Shown here piece after piece: positions 1 through 15,443 of a DNA stretch of 20,236 bases. The notes beneath the pieces were generated by a model. That model was not told where the DNA came from. It searched no databases and saw only the letters and a program-made list of their open reading frames with translations. The stretch is taken from IMG/VR virus record IMGVR_UViG_3300033144_002171, positions 1 to 20,236 of that record; one strand, given 5' to 3'. The position numbers and the translations under genes were made by a program. Origin of the DNA: a virus. Every line of letters starts with the position of its first letter. The first letter of the stretch is position 1.

Positions 1-538
1 ATCGGCAAGTTCTCCTTGAACTTCATCCCATCTTTTTTGTGCTTCAGGAAATCTTCGTTCCCCGGTGAACATATTGGCTGCCTCATTGTCGGGGTCAAGC
101 AATAAAGGATCTGTTTCTCCCTTAACCCAATCTATGTGTTTATTGTATTTATCTTGGAGAGCTTTTGTTTCGGCATCGATAGGCTCTACCTCCTCCTCAC
201 TCTCTGTATCTAAAGATACCGATTGCGCTGCTGCGTCTGTCTCTTGAACTGTTGTATCCAACGAAGTATCTGTGTCCTCCGTAAGACCAGGAGATTCCGT
301 ATCGGTGTCTTCTTTTTTTTTTTAATTCTGCTCCGAACTCCTCCATCGTCCAATGATCTTTGAACGTGGGGTCTTTTTGCACCATATAATTATATAGATT
401 AGGGATAAACTCGGGATCAGCATCGACAGTAGATACAAAATCCTCATAAGGCAAATCAGCCTCGTAGGTTGGGTCAACCTTTACCATATAATCCCATAGC
501 TCTTTACTATACAAAGGTTGTGTTGCTGTCTCTGCCAT
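1..538 (-). CDS. Internal-virion-type protein, partial, frame broken at an A11 run
   Basis: The gene starts at ATG 538-536, two bases after the TAA of the upstream gene. The first 75 residues read well and carry two imperfect 25-residue copies of a motif (residues 14-38 and 48-72; shared core YMVxxDPT[YF], then an acidic-aromatic E[DE]F). At 313-323 the minus strand has 11 A inside a Lys-codon run. In the starting frame the protein then turns into Arg/His/Tyr/Gly-rich sequence and stops at 197-199. In the neighbouring frame (effective +1, as if there were 10 A) translation stays open for 104 codons to the window edge and gives normal acidic, hydrophilic protein (EDTDTESPGLTEDTDTSLD and onward). 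I therefore treat the two parts as one gene of at least 179 residues, either frameshifted by sequencing or slippage or truly broken, with its 3' end outside the window. Short aromatic repeats of this kind occur near the N-terminus of large internal proteins of marine phages (from memory). The function is unknown. Confidence 0.6.
313..323 (-). other. A11 homopolymer at a reading-frame break
   Basis: There are eleven consecutive T on the plus strand, giving A11 in the mRNA. Before the run the frame is Leu-Lys-Lys-Lys; after it the original frame gives Arg-Arg-His-Arg, while skipping one base gives Lys-Glu-Asp-Thr-Asp. The second choice is open and plausible to the window edge. Runs this long are known sites for polymerase slippage and also for sequencing errors. 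The sequence alone cannot tell these apart. Confidence 0.8.
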
Positions 539-540
539 AC

Positions 541-2628
541 TTATATTTTTTCAAAGTCTACATCTATTTTACTATAGTCTACTGCTAGGTATCCATCCTT
601 TTGTTTAATGGATGCCCACGGTACTTCCTGTGCCATTACCCCTCGGTATCTACCCTCCTTATTAATATATTTAAACTCATAGATATTAATACCATTAGGG
701 GATTGCCCTACTAAATTGATGTCTTCTTTAAGGGCAATATCAGAACGCCTTGGCGGGGTTGCTGCACCACCACCACTTGTTGCACCACCACCACCTGTCC
801 CTCCAGCGGTAGTCGTAGTGGTTTGAGTCTTTTGAGCGTTCTTTCTATATTGTCGCATAGCCGCTTTCATCGTCTCATTATTATGGTCTTGCCAGTCCTC
901 CGCATCTCCATACGTTTCACTTGGAGAATCTACAATAATGGTTCCTACCGTGGTATTATCTATTATAATAGGGATTTCATATATATTTTCTTTACCCGTC
1001 AAATCCCATTGGGAGTACTTATCATTAATCTTGGCTGTGCCTAAACCTAACATAGATTCTTTAAATCCTGGCATCCACGTATTTAGAGTTTCGGTGACAA
1101 TATTTTTTATATCTGTCGTATCACCAGAATCTAATGACACCAATGAATTTACTTTGGATGTCTGTGCTTTGGGAATAGCAGCAGGTTGAGTATAGGTAGG
1201 GGGTTTATGAGATGACCCCGCTTGTGCGGCATCATATCTTGCAGCATCAATCTTTTTAATATTATTATGATATTGAGATAATGCCTTATGGTCTCCATTC
1301 TGAATCTCTTCTCGTACTACTAGGTTGCCTTTCTTATCTTTTTCCCATACTATTATATTTCCATCCGATGTCTCCTCATATTCATAGTTTTTATTAAAGC
1401 GGCTAAAGTTAAAGTTATTAACAGCATCAATAGAATCTTGATATATCGTATTAGACAACTTATCCAGATTCTCCTCCGTGGTTCCCGTACCCGAATCCTT
1501 TTGTGGGGCCGTTTCTTTATACCCAGCTTGAGCATCGATGAGCTTGTCGACATATTCATCGGCACGTTTATCTTGCTCGGCAGATAGTTTAGGTTGGACA
1601 TTACCTAGTTCATCAGTTTCGGTTTCTACCATATACCCCTCTGCCACTTGATCGGCTACAGTGGATGGCATTGTACCTTTAACAAATGTGCCATTGGCAT
1701 CGGTATATCCTCCTGCCGTTTTGGACTCTTCAATAAGCTGATCACGTAGAGAAGTCATCTTCTTCTTATAATCATCACCCGTTTTATCCCCTTTATAGGC
1801 AGTAAATTTCCCATTGTCATTATCGGCTAATACACTAAACTTATTACGTGCATTACCTAGAATGGTATTTTTCATATCGGTCTTAAAGACCGCATAGTCA
1901 TCTCTTTCCTGTTGGGAGGCTACCAATTTATCCCCATCCCATATTTGAAACTCCCCCGCATTCTTAAATTGGTTGCTAATCATACCACTCACATCTACCC
2001 TATCGGCTAATTGGTTTTGGTTGTTATTAATACTATTTAAAGATTTGGTGTCTATTACATTCCCATTGGTATCGTAGGTCTCTAAAGACATTCTTCCCGT
2101 AGTAGGGTCGCTAATTATTTTTTTATTTCGTAAGTCGCTCAAGTCAGCTTTATCGGAACCAAGGAATAGTTCGAATGCTCCTGCCGGGGCTGGTTTGCCA
2201 TCTTTCCCTTGTTGGCGTTTCATCATCTCGGCAAAATTCTCATTATAGTTTTTAGCCTCTCTAGCAAAATTAGACCAATCCTGCTTGGCGTTCTGTAACA
2301 TTTTTGTGGCATCGCTAGGATTAAGCTTAATGCGTTTCCCTGGGTTAGATGGGTCATCATAGCCCCCATCTTGGACTGCCTTGGCTAACCACTTCTGAAA
2401 ATTACGTTGACCATCAGCTCCCTCAATAACAAATTGATTAAAACCTTTGTTCTGCCCATGAGGAATATCATCTAAATTATCACTCGCATCGGTGAATTGT
2501 TTTTGAATGACTTCCCTTTGGGCCTTACGGGCAAGATCGACTTTAGCTAAATCTCCTGTGATTTTAGTAGCAATCTCTCCCCATCTTACGGGGCCACCCT
2601 CTGCCTTTTTAAAACCTGCGTATTCCAT
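541..2628 (-). CDS. Large internal-virion/tail protein with short S74-like C-terminus
   Basis: This is a hydrophilic protein of 695 residues. Its ATG directly follows the TAG of the preceding gene, so translational coupling is likely. Residues 1-600 have no domain I can name. They are rich in Asp, Asn, Lys and Gln, and the region around 100-145 looks helical. A Thr/Gly-rich linker covers about 601-627 (five Thr, then Gly-rich). From Ser629 to the end (67 residues) it resembles the intramolecular chaperone/Peptidase_S74 motif: SDxxLKEDI, then GINIYEFKY, then GVMAQEV. Ser629 and Lys634 have the +5 spacing of the Ser-Lys dyad of endosialidase-type auto-cleaving chaperones. The domain is shorter than the usual ~100 or more residues. 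Position after the tail genes and next to an Ala-rich protein suggests a virion component carried in the head or tail lumen, though an external fibre role cannot be excluded. The call of virion protein is fairly safe; the exact role is unknown. Confidence 0.6.
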   Translation of the reverse strand: MEYAGFKKAEGGPVRWGEIATKITGDLAKVDLARKAQREVIQKQFTDASDNLDDIPHGQNKGFNQFVIEGADGQRNFQKWLAKAVQDGGYDDPSNPGKRIKLNPSDATKMLQNAKQDWSNFAREAKNYNENFAEMMKRQQGKDGKPAPAGAFELFLGSDKADLSDLRNKKIISDPTTGRMSLETYDTNGNVIDTKSLNSINNNQNQLADRVDVSGMISNQFKNAGEFQIWDGDKLVASQQERDDYAVFKTDMKNTILGNARNKFSVLADNDNGKFTAYKGDKTGDDYKKKMTSLRDQLIEESKTAGGYTDANGTFVKGTMPSTVADQVAEGYMVETETDELGNVQPKLSAEQDKRADEYVDKLIDAQAGYKETAPQKDSGTGTTEENLDKLSNTIYQDSIDAVNNFNFSRFNKNYEYEETSDGNIIVWEKDKKGNLVVREEIQNGDHKALSQYHNNIKKIDAARYDAAQAGSSHKPPTYTQPAAIPKAQTSKVNSLVSLDSGDTTDIKNIVTETLNTWMPGFKESMLGLGTAKINDKYSQWDLTGKENIYEIPIIIDNTTVGTIIVDSPSETYGDAEDWQDHNNETMKAAMRQYRKNAQKTQTTTTTAGGTGGGGATSGGGAATPPRRSDIALKEDINLVGQSPNGINIYEFKYINKEGRYRGVMAQEVPWASIKQKDGYLAVDYSKIDVDFEKI

Positions 2629-3201
2629 CTATATAACTATTTGCGCTCCAGTGTCATCATATAATCCTCGTGCTGCATAAAGCGAAGTTCCTAGACCACC
2701 TACTCCAGAGGCAATATCAGAGGCAGCCGCTCTACTTCCCTCCTCGGCAGCCGCTCGTGCCTCCCCTGCTCCTGTAAGTCTCGCCATTTCTAGCTCTCGC
2801 TCTATATTGGCTTGATCAGTTTCTATTGTTTGGTCTTGTTGAGCAATAAGCTTATCTAAATCTGCCTCTCGTTGTTCTATACCAGCAGCTATTTTTAAAT
2901 CTTGAGTATTGGAGGCATCCACTATATTTGATACTTGAAAAGCTCCCTCTGGGCCTTGTTGTTGTAAAACATCCATTGACTGCTTTACTCCCCTATCTTT
3001 AGATTGTTGAGCGAGTTCTGTTCCTAATTTGGGAACTTGCAGACCCTTGAGTTTATTTTCGGTCTTAATACTTACTAAATTCTGTGCCGCTTTTGCACCT
3101 GCCTCTTCGGCTTTATTAAGATCACCTCGTTGTTTTACGTATTGTGCCGCACTTAATGCCAAGCCTCCTGCTGCCACTACGGCTGATGTTACTGCTGCCA
3201 T
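2629..3201 (-). CDS. Ala-rich internal virion protein (putative ejection/cargo protein)
   Basis: This protein has 190 residues. The N-terminus (about 1-20) is a small-residue hydrophobic stretch (AAVTSAVVAAGGLALSAAQ) followed by KQR, which could be a membrane-interacting helix. Residues 20-150 are predicted helical, rich in Ala, Gln and Glu, with a long charged stretch (about 105-140) of coiled-coil character. Another small-residue segment (Gly/Ala/Ser) lies at 150-180. It starts one base after the TAA of the GNAT-like gene and its TAG abuts the ATG of the 695-residue gene. Short Ala-rich proteins with an N-terminal hydrophobic patch, encoded beside larger internal proteins, are typical ejection-type proteins of podoviruses; that role is inferred from composition and position, not from a recognised domain. 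Confidence 0.5.
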   Translation of the reverse strand: MAAVTSAVVAAGGLALSAAQYVKQRGDLNKAEEAGAKAAQNLVSIKTENKLKGLQVPKLGTELAQQSKDRGVKQSMDVLQQQGPEGAFQVSNIVDASNTQDLKIAAGIEQREADLDKLIAQQDQTIETDQANIERELEMARLTGAGEARAAAEEGSRAAASDIASGVGGLGTSLYAARGLYDDTGAQIVI

Positions 3202-3202
3202 A

Positions 3203-3610
3203 TTATAAGAATTTAACCATTTGTGTACAATTTTTATCTGTCTCTATAAATTTGCAGTCTTCATATTTTTGAATAAGGGCTTTATTGTTTAAGCTAGTAA
3301 AAATATATTTAGCTCCCTTATCTTTACAAATCTCTGCAATCATATGTAATAAAAAGTATATCGCCTCTCTTCTATCATTTCCTCTATATTTTTTATTAGA
3401 AATAACGAACTCGCACCACGCTACATTTGAATTAGTGAAATACATATATCCTGCACATATATTCACCTCATCTTTAGAGACTAGTACTCCCCCTGTGCCA
3501 TTTTCAGGAAGAAAGTCTTTTGATGGGGCATCCCATTTCCAATCTTTCCACCAACCACACAAAATGTCCTCGTAATCCCCATCTTGTAAGAGTCGTGCCT
3601 TAAAATTCAT
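3203..3610 (-). CDS. GNAT-like N-acetyltransferase
   Basis: This protein has 135 residues and fits the size and layout of a minimal GNAT fold: an N-terminal strand-helix (MNFKARLLQDGDYEDI), a central beta pair around 50-70 (ICAGYMYF, AWCEFVIS), then KKYRGNDRREAIYFLLHMIA, which sits where the acetyl-CoA-binding motif A and its helix belong, then KYIFTSLNNKALIQKYEDCKF, the usual strand plus the helix ending in an 'x-x-[GC]-F' turn. The pyrophosphate-binding [RQ]xxGx[GA] motif is degenerate (RGNDRR), so activity is uncertain. The substrate is unknown. A TATCTTTG box ends 5 bases before the ATG. GNAT proteins are common accessory genes in phages, where most remain unassigned. Here it sits between the detached muzzle module and the internal virion genes. 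Confidence 0.6.
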   Translation of the reverse strand: MNFKARLLQDGDYEDILCGWWKDWKWDAPSKDFLPENGTGGVLVSKDEVNICAGYMYFTNSNVAWCEFVISNKKYRGNDRREAIYFLLHMIAEICKDKGAKYIFTSLNNKALIQKYEDCKFIETDKNCTQMVKFL

Positions 3611-3628: not shown

Positions 3629-4393
3629 TTAAGGGTAACTTTTAAACACATCGCTAGTGACAGCGAACATTTCTACTTGGGTGGATTCTTTATTGGTAAG
3701 TAAAACATCTAGGTAATAGCCTCTTACACCATAAGATTCAGCAAGACTATTTTTCATATAAAGCATAAAATCTCCTGGCACGGGAACCGTTCCTACGAGA
3801 CCTAATGGCGGTGGTGCTAACGCAGTAACTGTCACCGTTGTAGTAGTGTGTGAAGTTATTATCCCCACTATAAGTGGGTCTGCTGTAGTGCTATTTCCTA
3901 TAAATAAAATATCTCCATCACTTAATATACTATCAATGGGATCGGCAAACCCTACAGTATAGGGAGGTCCAGGACTTACTAAAATGGCTGGGCCAATTCC
4001 TTGTGCCGACATTAAGTCTACATTAAATTCATTTTCATACCTCCGAATATAAGAATACCACGCTCCCTCTTTAAGGAGGTAATAGCTAGGGTCAATATAA
4101 CCTGTGCCTAAATCAGTCTGCATATCTGCCTCCCATGTAGTGTTCCCCTCAATCTCAATAGTTTTAAACATCTTGGCTTGAATGGGGTTCTCGTTAAATA
4201 TAGTCTGAATAGTAGAGTTATATTGAACACCATAGAAGTTATTACGTATAGGATTTACATTGTGTTTATATAGGTCTCCATCTTTAAAAGTAAAAAGATA
4301 GGTATTAAGCCTTACCATCCAATCGGGGTAATAAGAAAAGAATGATGTCCATCCTTTGGCTCTCGGAGAATAGGTTAGGGTATATTGTGCCAT
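3629..4393 (-). CDS. Detached C-terminal module of the muzzle/stabilisation tail protein
   Basis: This protein has 254 residues. The N-terminal 100 residues carry a motif series that I remember as the C-terminal part of the giant 'stabilisation/muzzle' proteins of crAss-like and marine podoviruses: LTYSPRAKGWTSFFSYYPDW, then NTYLFTFKDGDLYKHN, then RNNFYGVQY, then an Asn-Glu-x-Pro followed by KMFKTIEIEGNTTW. The middle (about 125-205) is a Pro/Gly/Thr-rich beta segment. The C-terminus (KNSLAESYGVRGYYLD ... VTSDVFKSYP) also resembles the usual end of those proteins. In this window the giant protein at 6474-13061 lacks this module. I infer that the gene encodes a separately made piece of the tail muzzle. 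It follows the glycosyltransferase-like gene with essentially no spacer; a TAACTTTG box overlaps the end of that gene. Confidence 0.6.
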   Translation of the reverse strand: MAQYTLTYSPRAKGWTSFFSYYPDWMVRLNTYLFTFKDGDLYKHNVNPIRNNFYGVQYNSTIQTIFNENPIQAKMFKTIEIEGNTTWEADMQTDLGTGYIDPSYYLLKEGAWYSYIRRYENEFNVDLMSAQGIGPAILVSPGPPYTVGFADPIDSILSDGDILFIGNSTTADPLIVGIITSHTTTTVTVTALAPPPLGLVGTVPVPGDFMLYMKNSLAESYGVRGYYLDVLLTNKESTQVEMFAVTSDVFKSYP

Positions 4394-6473: not shown

Positions 6474-9400
6474 TTATTCTAATGTTTTATCCACGCCATC
6501 TTCCATTGTTTTGGTAAGACCAGCTTGGGTTGTTTTAGTCATATCTAAATCGGGACATTCATATATATCTCCCGTCCATTGAGTCCCATCCCACTCAAAC
6601 GCAAGTTGCGTATCTACTTTTCTATACCAGCCCGGAGTAGCTAACACTAAACTAGGAACAATGCTATCATATAAATAATTTCCTGCTAGTCCCCAATCGC
6701 CCGTTTCATAAAAGGTATTATAGGATGTAGAATCACACGCATTTTCATTTATTACTCCATAGGCTGCAATAACTGCCGTATAAACGGGAGGAGCCGTAGT
6801 GGTGGTAGTGCTAGTACTAGTTGTAGTAGTCGTGGTAGTCGTTGTTGTGGTAGTCGTTGTTGTGGTGTTACTACAATTATGAACTCCTAATACTTGCCCT
6901 GTAACTCCAATTTCTATAGAAGTGTCTTCACCTTGGACATCATACCATTTTCCTAATCCATTAAAGACTGGAGAGGCGATTGTTGGCCCCGTATACACAA
7001 AATCTCCTACTTCGGGTATATCGGTATTTCCATTATGCCAAAATCCCGTATAAGCTCCTACATATTCACAAGCCTCCCATTGGTTCGAATATCCTGTATT
7101 AGATAAGTCGATATCATCTAATGGAGGGGTAGTAGTTGTTGTTGTTGTTGTGGTAGTTGTTGTGGTAGTTCCCGTACATAAAACACACGATGCATAAATA
7201 ACTACAGGATTAATCATAGTATAATAAGGGAATATCCCTGCTGGTATAACCCCCACTAATAACCAACAGCTACCATCAGTAGTTTTTACTATATCTCCGG
7301 GGTTTGTGGCTCCACTACACGAGGCATCAAATAAGGTAGCCGTAAACCCTGTGCTACATAAAATAGCCTCCCAATAACACCCTACAGGCAATGTGCTTGT
7401 GGTTGTTGAGGTCGTAGTTGAAGTTGTAGTTGTAGTAGGATCTGCACAATTATGAATGTTAACTACTATACCATTAAAATCAATTTGTATAACCGTATTG
7501 TTATCTAGCTTATACCATAAGTTTTGTCCATTAAAAGTTTGTTGTAAGGCTTGATCCACATATATCACATCATTTAGTTGAGGATATAGTTGAGTAGTTC
7601 CTCCATAATGCACAAAGTAATAAACACTAAAGATATCGGGTGAAGAACAAGCGGTGCCTGCATCTACTTCCCCATCGGGATTAATATTAACGGGTTGGAC
7701 TACGGCGGGTGGGGTTACATTAATAGTAAACATATGGACAATGCTATCGCCAAAACAATTGGTGGCATATAAATAAATCGTCCACGACCCTGCTTGACTA
7801 GGTACTCCAGAGAGTAAACCCGTGGCAGTATCAAAACTGATACCCGGAGGGAACACTTCATCCATACACACAATGGAGCCTCCAACAAAAGACACACTTC
7901 CCGTAGTAAGTAAAGGTTGTGAAGAGTCAAAACACATCTGTTCACTACTATTCGCCATTACGGGATAAGTGGTATAAGTCTGTGTTAAACAATCTACACC
8001 CTCAATGGTTCCCCCACTTGCATTACCTTGTATATCATATATTCTACAATTGCTTTGAATAGTAAACGAAGTAGGGTTTCCTGTAGCTACCCCAATTACT
8101 ATATTAATAAGATCGCCAACACTCATAGTTAAGTCTCCTTGAGAAATAACGGGAGGTAAAATTTCATTACACGTACAATTACCAACTGCGATAACATACC
8201 CATTAATATCTACTAGTATCCATTCTTGATTTGGCCCCGGTGTAATAGTAGTGGCATGATAAGCATTGCCCCCATTATAAGGATTAAGACCTGTGGAGTC
8301 CGTATATACTCTATCTCCTACAATAGGCGTAGCTCCCGTCCCATCGTGATAATATGTAACATCACACGCATATTCGCATACTTCAACAATACTTGCGTTA
8401 TAAGTATTAATGCAGAATGGAGTTAGAGTAGGGCAAAACGCACTTACTGTCCACCCACTACTAGCTAAAGGATTATAGATAGTAAGTTCAGCCTCTTCAG
8501 GTATTTGAAGTGTTTTCATAAAGGTACGAGTGCCATTGCCATTATCAGTTAATCCATCATATGGTGGCCCCACTAAATTTATTTCACTTGCTGGTATACC
8601 CTCGGCTATTAGGGCATTGTAGTTAGCCAATGTATTAAGACCAATATATCCCGTATCTATTTGTATGGTATTATTCCACGTTACCACATACCTCGTAGGA
8701 GTGGTCATAGAATTAAATGTTATTCCTACGGGGCCGATATTACTTCCAAAATTTAATATCATATGGTGGGTAGTTGCCTCCCCTCCTGCCCACGAGGCAG
8801 CCTCACCACATAATAGTTGGTCTCTATAATCCCAAATTAAATATAAGTATTGTTCATTATTAGGTCTTATAAAAGTAAATGTGCCATCATAAATATTAGG
8901 AGCCGTAAAAATGGCTGCTAGTGGAGTAGATAACGATAATATCGTTAAGGTGTCTATAGCACTATAATAGGTGTTGGTAACTAAATATCTCAACCTATTA
9001 TTAGCATTAGGATTAAATGGTTTCTTGGTTCCACCATCCGTATAGGCTGTCATCGTAATAGTGTCTCCTGGGACAGGAATAGGGTATTGCCCAGGGAAAT
9101 TCTGAACAGGGTCAAATAAAGATAAACCCGTTATGAGTGATGGCGGTACACCGGGAACTAAACTTTGTGCCAACAAAGGAGTATCGATGTGAGTCCACGG
9201 AGGAAGAACATTGCTCGTATACGTATACACTTGAGTAGCTGTTAGCCCAGCATCATCGGGATTGTTTACTACCATAGCTATGCGAGTCAATTCTGCTCCT
9301 GATGCTTGATATAAATTAACTATCAGAGTCAAGGCTTCATCACCTTGTCCACATCCTCGTATTTCAAATGTCAAGCTCCTATCAGAACCTGTTGCGTTAG

Positions 9401-12400
9401 CATCTATATTGATTATAATATCTTGATTATCATTTCCTGATGCAGGATACCCATTTATCCACCCTATACCATATCCATCATCGGTGACATATAAATCCCA
9501 ACTAGTATTAGATGTAATGGTAAATGCTAAAAAATTAGGGTGGGCATTATTGTCTACGCCAATATAATTTCGGCTCACTTCTAGAATACAAGGTTTGGCA
9601 TCTCTATCCGAAGAAGATAACACATATCTCTCGTGATACGGATCCATACACCCTATCTTTAAAGTCTTTTGATCGGTGGTAAAAAGGTCTTTAAACCAAT
9701 CTCTCAATCCTTGGGATGATATTTCAAACATACCATCTAACCCCAAGCGTAAAGTAACCCCTCTTTTAGCATCAGTAAAGAACATCGTGTTACCCCAATA
9801 AGCAAAGCTTTCGGGGTTTTCACTAATTCCATACTCCCCAGCATAGGTAATCTGTGTGCCTAACACTTGCGGATTAGTCGTAATGCTACCTCCCCCCACG
9901 GCATCACTAATTAAATTTTTTCCATAAAGAATTTTAGAGACCTTATGTTCTTGAAATACCACTAAATCTGTATCTCTAGCGTGGAGCTTTTGGATGCTCC
10001 CAAAAAATATATCTAAATATTTATAATTGGCAGTAGATAGATTAAATTCATTAAGGGAATTAATACCAGATGATTCTCTAAAAACACCGCTATAAGTCAA
10101 ACCCTCTTCTACTCGCTCTTGCCTATAGTCATCAATCACGGTAGATGCACGAGGACTATACTGCATAGTGGTTTCATTAAAGGCATCTTTAATACGATAA
10201 CTTTCTAATCCATTGCCAAATGAAAAGGAATTAAAATTTCCATTGTCATTGGTAGAATCATTTAAGGAAATAGTAAGTCCATTAATAGCGGTTTGAAAAT
10301 TGCCCATTAAATCCCCATGATAATGATTAGGGTCAATGGGATATGTTTCTACCATCTCATAAAATATCTCATTGTCTACTTCTTTTGCTACCGTCTCAAA
10401 AATAGTAGGAGTATCTTGTTGTTGGATAGTAAACTCGACTCTAATAAAATTTCTCTTACACGCATTATTGGTTGTCCCATTATTACCGGGAGACTGCCCT
10501 ACCCCTCCTATTATCATATAGGCGGCATAGTCTTCAGCTTGTGGGGGATCCCACTCAATTTGGTTGTGCCACGACCCTGCACTTTGATTCCATCTCCAAT
10601 TAAATCCGTGACGAAACATTACATTTTTTGAACCTACATCATTGGCTCCATCGTATTGAACAAAACTATTATAAATTTTGTCTTCCCAAAACCACTCTTC
10701 TATATTAATATATCTATCATTAGAGATAAAATTTTGAGTAGCTTGATAATTTCCCATAGCCGTACCATCGCTAGTAAAAGATTCTTTTATCTTAATACTA
10801 ATAATAGCTCCTGCCTCTATGGGTCTATCATAATAAGCTGGATTTCCTGTTCCCCAGCCACTCCCCGGAATGATAGCAAAACCTCCAGCCGTATCTCCTT
10901 GACCTTGAGTAGATCCATAAAAATGTAGGTCTCCTCCAAATGGCCCTATCACTCCATTTCCATAACAATTAATTCTCCACGAATCTCCTGCTTTCATTCC
11001 TTGCGAGGGATCGCTAGTAGGGTTTATCCACTTCATACTAGCTACATGGTTTCCGTTAGGGCCATCTAGTAAAGGATAAGCAGAATAGGGCGTAATGGTC
11101 TGACCTGCGGCTACCGTAGTAAGACCCCCATCTCTATAGACCGAATATTTAAAGGTATGAGTAGTGGAGGGAAATATTAAAGGTTCTATCTCAATGATAA
11201 AACGCATATCTTCAGTTGGCGCACCATAATTGCAATTGCCATTGCAAAAAGGGGTATTATATACCTCGGTTACCAATTTCCCTTGGGCTGATCCTAATGG
11301 CCCTCCATAATAAATGGGTTGACCTGCATATTCTGTTCCTGTATTAGCCCCATATCTCCAATCTATAGTATCCTCATTACAAAGATTTTTATATCTGGTT
11401 GCTGACGATCCTTGTGCCGTTGAAGTATATTGAAAGGTATCGGCTAATAAAAATTGATATGGATAAGGCTTAATCTTCATATATAAGCCAGGTGGTTGAT
11501 AATTTCCGTTATTTAAAAAGTCTTGCCCTTTAACAGATAGCTCTAGGACATTATATTGTTGATTACTATGGGTAACTCCTTGGACATTACTCTTGGCAAT
11601 TACATATCCATCCACCGGGACTTTATCTTTTTCTGGATAGGGCAATAAAAACCATCTATAAATTCCATCTTCAAAAAATGTTATAGGAAATATATTGTAA
11701 TATTCTCCCTTATCTTGCTTTATAAAAAACCTATATGAAGTAGCCCAACATGGGGCTTTGCCACCAGCAGGGAAAAAGACATCTAATGAATTACTATAAT
11801 CGGAAAAATCAGGACTGATATAGGTGGTATTCATTTCAGAGGTTAAGACCGTAGTCATTCTCCCATAATCATCCAAATAGGCTATGCCTATCTCATAATC
11901 TCTATCACTTCTAAAACTCTGTTGTGCATTAGGAAAGGTTCCAATGGTGGGGGTAAAGCTTACTTCATAATTTAAATTTATAGGATTACCATCACATAAA
12001 GTTAAGTCTCTAAATTGCACATAATTGCCATATAATAACCTACTGCCTACAAGCTCTTGAGCTAATGCTTTTAAAGGAACATTATCAAATAATCGAGCTA
12101 ATTGAGTGGGGGTAAGATATGTATAAACTTTATTATTATTAAAGTCAAATTGGGCTGTATTGTTAGTAAGATTATAATTATAAGCCGCATTAGAAATAAG
12201 ATCTTCTCGTTTAAAAGACTCTATTACACTAACATTTATATTACGAGTGTCTCTAAAAAGTAATTGTACCTCTTCAACATTTTTATCTCCACACTCAAAA
12301 GTCAACTTTACTTGATTATATTTATTAACCATAGCAGGATTATTGCCCACTCCATAGTCATAAAAATAGATTAGGGGAGCAAAACATACTGCTGAAAAGG

Positions 12401-13061
12401 GAGACATAGCACTATACTCGTTATCTCGATATTTATATCTATACGAAAAGTAGAGAAACTTCTCTGATAAGTTATTCTGATCGGTTCCATTATTACTTAA
12501 AGCAAGAGTAGGGGAACTCAAAGGTGGTTTCTTAATAACCAAAATATCACTTTCAGTCAGTAAGCCACCCCAATCAGCCCCCAAACTTGTTGTCTGTGAA
12601 ATACAATGATTTATGTTTATACCTCTTGGTTCATTTAAATTATCAGTCCAATAGAGTAGTCCCTCTATAATATTTACCCCGGTGATAACATATCCTTTGT
12701 CAAACCCTAAAATACTTGGGGTAGTGGGGGTTAATTTATTGCATTGTAAAACTATGGTTGTGCTGCCCGTGATTTCACTAAACTCTAATACATAATCCGA
12801 ATTGTCGGAGGCTACGAACCAATATATTTTATTATTAGCCTCATCAGGAATTGCTCCTATAGCTAGGGCATTATCGCCAGGGGTAAAGAAATTACTTTGA
12901 TTTATGTTCCCTTTGGTATTTTCAACGGCTCCTACATCGGAAGATTGGGATGTTCCGATACTCACATTTAATGCTTGGCGATACTGATTTTTAGGTAGGA
13001 GTCTTTCATCCAAATCCTTATTCATTATGCCTGCAATGAAATTCCGTGTTATCTTTACCAT
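6474..13061 (-). CDS. Giant tail muzzle/stabilisation protein with BACON, Ig and Cys-capped repeats
   Basis: This protein has 2195 residues; its ATG directly follows the TAA of the ring/tail-tubular gene. Residues 1 to about 1150 match my memory of the crAss-like 'stabilisation' or muzzle protein that caps the podoviral tail: GIMNKDLDERLLPKNQYRQA near the start, and about 1100-1146 LRLGLDGMFEISSQGLRDWF then GCMDPYHERYVLS. Where relatives continue with a KGWTSFxSY module, this one enters a BACON domain (about 1158-1252: LEVSRNYI, ITSNTSWDLY, IDANATGSDRSLTFEI, ending VNLYQ). Next come beta-rich segments, a Cys-capped repeat (about 1562-1631), a He_PIG-type putative Ig domain (about 1636-1783, with FPPGISFDTATGLLSGVP), and further Cys-capped repeats separated by threonine tracts (about 1876-1891, 1964-1978, 2066-2091). 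The C-terminus is a short charged tail with repeated TKT/DKT. BACON and Ig domains usually bind glycans or hold adhesins, so the last ~1000 residues are probably an exposed display arm. The structural assignment is firm; binding partners are unknown. Confidence 0.75.
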   Translation of the reverse strand: MVKITRNFIAGIMNKDLDERLLPKNQYRQALNVSIGTSQSSDVGAVENTKGNINQSNFFTPGDNALAIGAIPDEANNKIYWFVASDNSDYVLEFSEITGSTTIVLQCNKLTPTTPSILGFDKGYVITGVNIIEGLLYWTDNLNEPRGININHCISQTTSLGADWGGLLTESDILVIKKPPLSSPTLALSNNGTDQNNLSEKFLYFSYRYKYRDNEYSAMSPFSAVCFAPLIYFYDYGVGNNPAMVNKYNQVKLTFECGDKNVEEVQLLFRDTRNINVSVIESFKREDLISNAAYNYNLTNNTAQFDFNNNKVYTYLTPTQLARLFDNVPLKALAQELVGSRLLYGNYVQFRDLTLCDGNPINLNYEVSFTPTIGTFPNAQQSFRSDRDYEIGIAYLDDYGRMTTVLTSEMNTTYISPDFSDYSNSLDVFFPAGGKAPCWATSYRFFIKQDKGEYYNIFPITFFEDGIYRWFLLPYPEKDKVPVDGYVIAKSNVQGVTHSNQQYNVLELSVKGQDFLNNGNYQPPGLYMKIKPYPYQFLLADTFQYTSTAQGSSATRYKNLCNEDTIDWRYGANTGTEYAGQPIYYGGPLGSAQGKLVTEVYNTPFCNGNCNYGAPTEDMRFIIEIEPLIFPSTTHTFKYSVYRDGGLTTVAAGQTITPYSAYPLLDGPNGNHVASMKWINPTSDPSQGMKAGDSWRINCYGNGVIGPFGGDLHFYGSTQGQGDTAGGFAIIPGSGWGTGNPAYYDRPIEAGAIISIKIKESFTSDGTAMGNYQATQNFISNDRYINIEEWFWEDKIYNSFVQYDGANDVGSKNVMFRHGFNWRWNQSAGSWHNQIEWDPPQAEDYAAYMIIGGVGQSPGNNGTTNNACKRNFIRVEFTIQQQDTPTIFETVAKEVDNEIFYEMVETYPIDPNHYHGDLMGNFQTAINGLTISLNDSTNDNGNFNSFSFGNGLESYRIKDAFNETTMQYSPRASTVIDDYRQERVEEGLTYSGVFRESSGINSLNEFNLSTANYKYLDIFFGSIQKLHARDTDLVVFQEHKVSKILYGKNLISDAVGGGSITTNPQVLGTQITYAGEYGISENPESFAYWGNTMFFTDAKRGVTLRLGLDGMFEISSQGLRDWFKDLFTTDQKTLKIGCMDPYHERYVLSSSDRDAKPCILEVSRNYIGVDNNAHPNFLAFTITSNTSWDLYVTDDGYGIGWINGYPASGNDNQDIIINIDANATGSDRSLTFEIRGCGQGDEALTLIVNLYQASGAELTRIAMVVNNPDDAGLTATQVYTYTSNVLPPWTHIDTPLLAQSLVPGVPPSLITGLSLFDPVQNFPGQYPIPVPGDTITMTAYTDGGTKKPFNPNANNRLRYLVTNTYYSAIDTLTILSLSTPLAAIFTAPNIYDGTFTFIRPNNEQYLYLIWDYRDQLLCGEAASWAGGEATTHHMILNFGSNIGPVGITFNSMTTPTRYVVTWNNTIQIDTGYIGLNTLANYNALIAEGIPASEINLVGPPYDGLTDNGNGTRTFMKTLQIPEEAELTIYNPLASSGWTVSAFCPTLTPFCINTYNASIVEVCEYACDVTYYHDGTGATPIVGDRVYTDSTGLNPYNGGNAYHATTITPGPNQEWILVDINGYVIAVGNCTCNEILPPVISQGDLTMSVGDLINIVIGVATGNPTSFTIQSNCRIYDIQGNASGGTIEGVDCLTQTYTTYPVMANSSEQMCFDSSQPLLTTGSVSFVGGSIVCMDEVFPPGISFDTATGLLSGVPSQAGSWTIYLYATNCFGDSIVHMFTINVTPPAVVQPVNINPDGEVDAGTACSSPDIFSVYYFVHYGGTTQLYPQLNDVIYVDQALQQTFNGQNLWYKLDNNTVIQIDFNGIVVNIHNCADPTTTTTSTTTSTTTSTLPVGCYWEAILCSTGFTATLFDASCSGATNPGDIVKTTDGSCWLLVGVIPAGIFPYYTMINPVVIYASCVLCTGTTTTTTTTTTTTTTPPLDDIDLSNTGYSNQWEACEYVGAYTGFWHNGNTDIPEVGDFVYTGPTIASPVFNGLGKWYDVQGEDTSIEIGVTGQVLGVHNCSNTTTTTTTTTTTTTTTTSTSTTTTTAPPVYTAVIAAYGVINENACDSTSYNTFYETGDWGLAGNYLYDSIVPSLVLATPGWYRKVDTQLAFEWDGTQWTGDIYECPDLDMTKTTQAGLTKTMEDGVDKTLE
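6791..6866 (-). repeat. Threonine-codon tract, about 25 residues
   Basis: This low-complexity stretch encodes near-continuous Thr with a few Ser, just after the last [GH]NC repeat end. The codons are mixed (ACC, ACA, ACG, ACT), with a visible imperfect 15-bp unit repeated on the plus strand around 6838-6867. It is a likely flexible linker and a possible length-variable site. Confidence 0.7.
7127..7172 (-). repeat. Threonine-codon tract, about 14 residues
   Basis: This Thr run (GTTTT... ending TPPLDD) lies between two Cys-rich repeats of the giant tail protein. It is made mainly of ACA and ACC codons and looks like a linker of the same type as the two neighbouring tracts. Confidence 0.65.
7391..7436 (-). 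repeat. Thr/Ser tract, about 16 residues
   Basis: This tract has the pattern TTTTTSTTTSTTTST between the second Cys-capped repeat and the next Cys-rich unit. It is the first of three Thr-rich linkers in the C-terminal arm of the giant tail protein. Confidence 0.65.
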
Positions 13062-14726: not shown

Positions 14727-14757
14727 TAAAAAAAAAGAGTCTCTTTTACAAAACTCT
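14727..14757 (-). terminator. Terminator-like hairpin after the 100-residue small gene
   Basis: On the minus strand, just past the TAA at 14762, AAAAGA-GAC-TCTTTT folds as a 6-bp stem with a 3-nt loop and runs into about nine T in total. An alternative AGAGT/ACTCT pairing also exists. The stem is A/T-rich, so strength is uncertain. Confidence 0.5.
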
Positions 14758-15416: not shown

Positions 15417-15443
15417 AAAAAAAAGTTGGTTAAATATACAACT
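15417..15443 (-). terminator. Hairpin plus T run after the conserved GTG-start gene
   Basis: On the minus strand AGTTG (overlapping the TAG stop) and CAACT pair around a 10-nt A/T loop and run into about eight T. The 5-bp stem is short but the T tract is clean. Confidence 0.45.

Follow-up and report, generated by a model that had tools for sequence, protein, structure and literature searches.

An adenine run close to the start of a giant gene is probably (at roughly 80%) a conserved site of programmed frame change, at which transcriptional slippage would allow a single virion cargo gene to yield both a short and a giant protein. The site lies in a virus record of 20,236 bases, referred to here as the window, which is a fragment of a crAss-like Bacteroidota phage. 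The muzzle C-terminal domain and the gene order mark the phage as crAss-like. In a comparison of gene order, the window matches Cellulophaga and elemo phages, and its kin are Cellulophaga phi38:1, phi46:3, and the Flavobacterium elemo phages. The coordinates of the features discussed below are collected in Table 1.

Table 1. Features of the window that bear on the candidate slippage site.
Feature	Position	Strand	Basis or remark
Giant protein continued in the other frame, at first as an S/T/D/E-rich linker, with no stop before the window edge	1..315	-	
Conserved tail and stop codon, zero frame in the window; end of the putative short product, predicted three-stranded beta-meander	197..312	-	
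A11 run (T11 on the + strand, A on the coding strand), candidate slippage site; relatives mostly A10	313..323	-	sequence and relatives
Second module copy, residues ~44-73	320..409	-	model helices 44-55, 65-73
First N-terminal helical-hairpin module, residues ~9-39	422..514	-	sequence and AlphaFold2 helices 12-21, 31-40
Start codon ATG of the giant gene	536..538	-	sequence
Stop of the upstream gene	541-543	-	upstream of the giant-gene ATG
695-aa gene upstream, with a Peptidase_S74 (intramolecular chaperone) domain at its C-terminus; located where crAss001 has cargo protein gp46	541..2628	-	
190-aa gene; position of crAss001 cargo protein gp45	2629..3201	-	gene order
Acetyltransferase-like anchor gene	3203..3610	-	phrog_17252, E 3.7e-41
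Muzzle C-terminal domain protein; crAss-like marker	3629..4393	-	Pfam crAss_MUZ_C, E 2e-17

The giant gene opens as a 113-codon reading frame (197-538, minus strand), the first 75 residues of which end in KKK at the run. Past the run, the zero frame continues for 38 more residues to a stop at 197-199, and the neighbouring frame contains no stop as far as the window edge. The original prediction, made from the letters and their open reading frames, described a gene interrupted at an A11 run, with 75 sensible residues before it and an open neighbouring frame after it, and each of these elements was found again in the sequence and its open reading frames. It also held that the protein loses sense after the run; this is incorrect, since the 38 residues are the conserved tail that relatives carry in their shifted frame. 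The further claim that one base less would restore one long gene agrees with the relatives, nearly all of which have the giant in frame, as A10 would place it here. With eleven adenines, the tail, RRHRYGISWSYGGHRYFVGYNSSRDRRSSAIGIFRYRE, stands in the zero frame, and the window as assembled reads into the short form, leaving the giant out of frame. The A11 is the only run of at least 10 in the window. The two next longest, A9 (14728-14736) and A8 (15417-15424), fall between listed long genes.

No useful relatives of the gene itself came from searches that used its 75 N-terminal residues, the 695-aa protein, or the first 8 kb of window DNA. Consequently, relatives were gathered through the neighbouring acetyltransferase-like gene, an anchor that is independent of the run. 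Four IMG/VR scans and three phage records provided 233 loci, of which 179 include the start of the giant gene; these form 127 clusters after deduplication on the first 400 nt. The stretch searched for the run differed slightly between counts, being the first 350 nt in one and 420 nt in later ones. The giant gene in relatives is one open reading frame, commonly longer than 2000 codons where enough DNA is present, and in L002-L010 a single unbroken frame of more than 2000 aa follows the run, under the same proviso. A run of A9-A13 or T9 occurs at the same place, 14 to 115 codons into the gene, in 118 of the 127 clusters: A10 in 104, A11 in six, A9 in five, and A12, A13, and T9 in one each, the T9 version being found in L002 and L003. 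Most relatives have A10 with the giant in the zero frame, unlike the window. Homologues lacking the run were to count against slippage; this outcome did not arise, although nine clusters lack it. Eight of them (L015, L017, L019, L020, L022, L026, L027, L046) form a clade without the N-terminal modules; L022 and L026 have an A9 at another position and are counted as run-less. In the ninth, L067, the run is interrupted and the tail can still be read. Two minor observations concern individual loci. In L019, the giant gene shifts frame relative to L015 at about 12,470-12,920, with no long homopolymer there, and L126 and L169 carry an additional A10 located 11-12 nt upstream of the giant start codon, besides the run within the gene.

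The run is not a product of chance. Runs of A10 or longer number 112 in the first 420 nt of the giant gene (127 clusters) and none in a control of 2,128,740 coding bases taken elsewhere in these loci, made up of 1,457,022 bases of other open reading frames and 671,718 bases of the remaining giant genes. A9 or T9 occurs 19 times in this control, and among 980 other open reading frames, six have a run of at least 9 in their first 420 nt and none has one of at least 10. AAA accounts for 67% of lysine codons; the tripeptide Lys-Lys-Lys is written entirely in AAA in 87 of 89 cases at the run and in 8 of 339 elsewhere, and long adenine runs are therefore shunned everywhere but here. Each of the three codon phases occurs at the start of the run, and the encoded residues are as different as LKKK, VKKK, EKKN, QKKK, KKKS, and FFF. 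Consequently, what is conserved is the DNA sequence rather than a peptide. Cultured phages carry it as well, with A10 in phi38:1, elemoC, and Calle_1, and the run region is identical (A10) in the 60 elemo records listed.

The frame reached after one extra base encodes a tail of 15-48 residues followed by a stop in 117 of the 118 clusters, and of 8 residues in L040. The same pattern recurs in phages that are unrelated: a strand with G-[I/F/V] leads through a turn into an aromatic strand containing [F/I/L]-G, and a third strand, A-[F/I]-G-[I/F]-F, often follows. Its conservation was assessed against a null in which the main-frame protein is fixed and synonymous codons are redrawn from the same gene. 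In a first set, scored with a leave-group-out model, 40 of 47 tails beat all 200 nulls and 43 lay within 5%; the failures at that level are L040, L070, L076, and L012. In a second set, an HMM built from 48 clusters gave a median of 22.7 bits for 69 unseen clusters, 65 of which ranked in the top 1% of 500 synonymous reshuffles (60 beat all of them, and four fail at 1%), compared with 16 of 69 for the opposite (-1) frame in the same test. The main frame is itself conserved beyond what the tail demands (47 of 69 within 1%), and the region is therefore no free linker. In 64 ungapped pairs, which are not independent of each other, substitutions that are silent in the tail and change the main protein number 327, versus 242 of the converse kind; in 25 downstream control windows of such pairs, likewise not independent, the figures are 61 and 262. 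The position that is freed is the wobble position of the tail frame. That the tail is conserved protein-coding sequence in the frame a slip would reach is strongly supported by these comparisons.

Going upstream from the run, the tail frame is closed after a median of 9 nt (maximum 60), and the interval contains no ATG, GTG, or TTG in 113 of 118 clusters. As a result, the run is the only evident entry into the tail. The tail as an independent overlapping gene was considered and rejected on account of this upstream closure and the lack of a start codon in 113 of 118. No separate tail gene was found elsewhere, as the tail HMM matched this site only, besides three weak matches. The tails have a mean net charge of +5.2 and are 26% aromatic, compared with 19% in the nulls; their charge per residue, 0.16 versus 0.21, is not above that of the nulls. 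Searches of Pfam, PHROGs, and PDB sequences assigned neither the short form nor the tail to a family. A DNA pattern consisting of A10 followed by degenerate tail codons was also used without the anchor gene. It matched 79 times in IMG/VR. Of these matches, 77 show this arrangement; the other two are a chance A24 and an unclassed contig end. The pattern count is too low, because the window itself is missed even by a slightly looser form. Across 84,980 genomes of bacteria and archaea, the pattern matched 37 times and never in this arrangement: 28 matches have no open reading frame of more than 100 codons past the run continuing from an earlier ATG, and in the other 9 the shifted frame is not the tail.

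Two tandem copies of a module precede the run, and the two halves of the N-terminus are self-similar in 108 of 118 clusters. The module varies by phage, being a 30-residue helical hairpin in many and in others short motifs such as FVPPSDAV, DPLGLKK, or LPSPNDIL. Nineteen pairs are alike after the run and unrelated before it, while a single pair shows the reverse; the cultured phages phi13:2 and phi18:3 are likewise alike after the run, with the N-terminal cassette swapped. The run therefore also delimits an exchangeable cassette. A further module copy in the same locus occurs in 2 of 118 loci (L128, 13689-13790; L165, 12667-12765), just past the run, so that copies flank it, and no docking partner with the same repeat was found among module copies elsewhere in the 118 loci. 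The 113-residue short form of the window was modelled with AlphaFold2 from an alignment of the window and tails (19 sequences). The model (mean pLDDT 79.7, pTM 0.55) predicts two helical hairpins followed by a three-stranded beta-meander at residues 78-112. Fold searches with it returned nothing below E 0.1.

In the proposed mechanism, RNA polymerase would slip on the A9-A13 run while transcribing the giant gene. Transcripts in one length class would encode the giant, in which two N-terminal modules and the lysine run lead into an acidic linker and then a stretch of more than 2000 residues. Transcripts longer by one A, or equivalently shorter by two, would encode the short protein, in which the same two modules and lysine run are followed by the conserved cationic and aromatic tail of 15-48 residues, a beta-hairpin or beta-meander, and then a stop. 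Both products would share the docking modules, and their ratio would be set by the run. Such slippage is known from enterobacterial RNA polymerase at runs of at least nine A/T, with spa13 (A10), mur (A10), and mxiE (T9) among the cases named in the excerpt of PMC6260861. Slippage giving a short and a long product from one gene had been raised as a possibility in the original prediction, and the comparison of relatives supports it strongly. However, the short form is no truncated wreck but ends in a conserved, domain-like tail.

The main rival is programmed -1 frameshifting by the ribosome at the lysine codons (A AAA AAN), which would produce the same tail from uniform transcripts; it is considered unlikely. 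The tail frame is reached equally by a -1 ribosomal shift and by an mRNA one base longer, and a slippery heptamer must be contained in every run seen, as all are at least nine long. However, a -1 shift heptamer needs only its seven bases, all of them A, yet no run is shorter than 9 and 104 of 118 are A10. A-rich heptamers are also classic shift sites, for example in E. coli dnaX (excerpt of PMC5009743). Against a shift of this kind, the run also occurs as T9 (L002, L003), and neither a stem-loop nor an enrichment of upstream Shine-Dalgarno sequences accompanies it: the downstream fold has a mean z of -0.23, and Shine-Dalgarno-like sequences lie upstream in 22% versus 21% of controls, both over 117 clusters, with L040 left out for its tail of fewer than 12 residues. 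Because the runs reach at least nine where a shift needs seven adenines, and because the usual stimulators are absent, transcriptional slippage is favoured by about five to one over the ribosomal shift.

Two further explanations do without any slip in gene expression. If run length changed during DNA replication, the phage could toggle between giant and short form by phase variation. The A11 of the window and the A9 of four Cellulophaga deposits, which depart from the usual A10 and alter the frame, would fit such a switch, but, as assembled, no break at the run appears in any of the 127 surveyed clusters, and A10 is identical in the 60 listed elemo records, where a switch should often show both states; phase variation is accordingly held to be quite improbable. 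It is more improbable still that lysines alone account for the retention of the run, or that it persists as the DNA junction at which N-terminal cassettes are exchanged, with no second product. The 19 pairs against one, and the swap between phi13:2 and phi18:3, agree with a junction. However, this leaves the conserved tail frame and the wobble pattern unexplained, and a role for the lysines is at odds with their avoidance of all-AAA elsewhere and with a run that persists while codon phase and residues vary. Transcriptional slippage is retained as the preferred reading.

The A11 of the window may be either a length variant with the short form as its default or an assembly or sequencing slip. 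In this contig only, it is somewhat probable that the eleventh A is such a slip and that the true sequence is A10. Indels classically occur at homopolymers, 104 of 118 relatives have A10, and no cluster out of 127 is broken at the run. On the other hand, an in-frame A11 is present in relatives L011, L039, L079, L106, L138, and L196, which shows that such runs were plausibly assembled elsewhere. An indel is rated somewhat likelier than a true variant because no surveyed cluster is broken and the 60 listed elemo records have one run length. A slip in this contig leaves the conserved site itself unaffected. A related observation concerns the four Cellulophaga Pachyviridae deposits examined, phi19:3, phi18:3, phi46:3, and phi13:2, in which the run is A9 and the giant frame is broken. 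For this reason, the giant gene is annotated there as two (L235, 5056-10991, which is phi19:3; L239, L240, L241), for example as gp128 and gp129 of phi19:3. The frame in which the first part ends belongs to neither the giant nor the conserved tail, and the A9 in these four deposits is possibly a sequencing error.

Several known systems resemble the proposed site. In Thermus thermophilus dnaX, transcriptional slippage yields tau and gamma, a long and a short product (excerpt of PMC5009743), at a site of T9 in the template strand (excerpt of PMC6260861). Both dnaX, as described in these excerpts, and the proposed site involve a homopolymer within one open reading frame and a full-length and a short product with a common N-terminus. 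However, the short dnaX product ends at nearby stops in the other frames, while the alternative frame here is a conserved domain-like tail, and gene, organism, and function all differ. In the Shigella type III secretion genes spa13, spa33, and mxiA, slippage gives two protein lengths, with 25-30% of the product shifted at the A10 of spa13 (excerpts of PMC5009743 and PMC6260861). Slippage in spa13, as excerpted, lengthens the protein, whereas here it would shorten it to a small alternative form; no sequence relation is claimed. The frameshift of the lambda tail assembly chaperone gpG/gpGT, conserved across phages, likewise gives two products with a common N-terminal part (excerpt of PMC5009743), and, so far as that excerpt describes it, resembles the present case in being located in a phage virion-assembly gene. 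Unlike gpG/gpGT, where a ribosomal -1 shift makes the longer product, the shifted product here would be the shorter of the two, made at a long homopolymer. No description of this slippage site was found in the open-licence literature on slippage in phages and Bacteroidetes or on crAss-like phages and their cargo.

The giant would be a virion cargo protein, as its position matches that of crAss001 gp47. The virion of crAss001 stores gp45, gp46, and gp47 as cargo proteins, whose ejection is presumed (excerpt of PMC10172136). In PhiCrAss001, the genes beyond the muzzle gene gp44 (gp45, gp46, gp47) stand in the same order as in the window, the giant and gp47 being compared by position only; unlike the window, its gp44-gp47 (gp47 in part) contain no A or T run of at least 8. 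In cultured relatives, the record of phi38:1 gp101 reads 'structural protein', and that of phi18:3 gp123, which is part of the giant, notes MS/MS verification. By analogy with crAss001, the giant would be located inside the virion, and the short form may be present in the virion as well. In L003, residues 1941-1994 of the giant give a weak match to ART-PolyVal (ADP-ribosyltransferase of polyvalent proteins) at E 2.7e-6, under the Pfam cut-off.

A broader model is put forward tentatively, at somewhat less than even odds. In most environmental crAss-like Bacteroidota phages of this kind, a fixed A10 would act as a ratio-setting slippage switch that draws two virion proteins from one cargo gene, both with the same exchangeable pair of docking modules. 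The giant would be ejected, and the small cationic beta-meander would plug, cap, or open the ejection path at the portal, the tail, or the host membrane, with the run doubling as cassette border. The site adds a hidden conserved protein ending to a widespread phage group, overlooked because annotation stops at one frame, and explains split or 'broken' giant genes in deposited genomes such as the window and the phi19:3 group. It also offers a natural library of more than 100 candidate slippage sites whose length is strongly selected, and a starting point for learning how giant cargo proteins are loaded and ejected by crAss-like phages. Cultured phages, namely Cellulophaga phi38:1, Calle_1, and the Flavobacterium elemo phages, allow immediate testing.

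The module pair exists without the switch as well. The DarB-like giant of Bacteroides phage BKO1-TP3 starts with two similar module copies (39% identity over 56% of the phi19:3 query); unlike in the window, its gene has no A/T run of at least 8 in the first 600 nt. This giant gene is at L238, 5630 onward, and the phage has an integrase gene. Two observations on neighbouring genes may be added. The Peptidase_S74 chaperone domain closes the 695-aa gene of the window (541-2628), but in L004 it closes the preceding gene (10413-11378), and it appears to have shifted between neighbouring genes. Elsewhere in the window, the 2195-aa protein encoded at 6474-13061 has long threonine-rich linkers close to its C-terminus.
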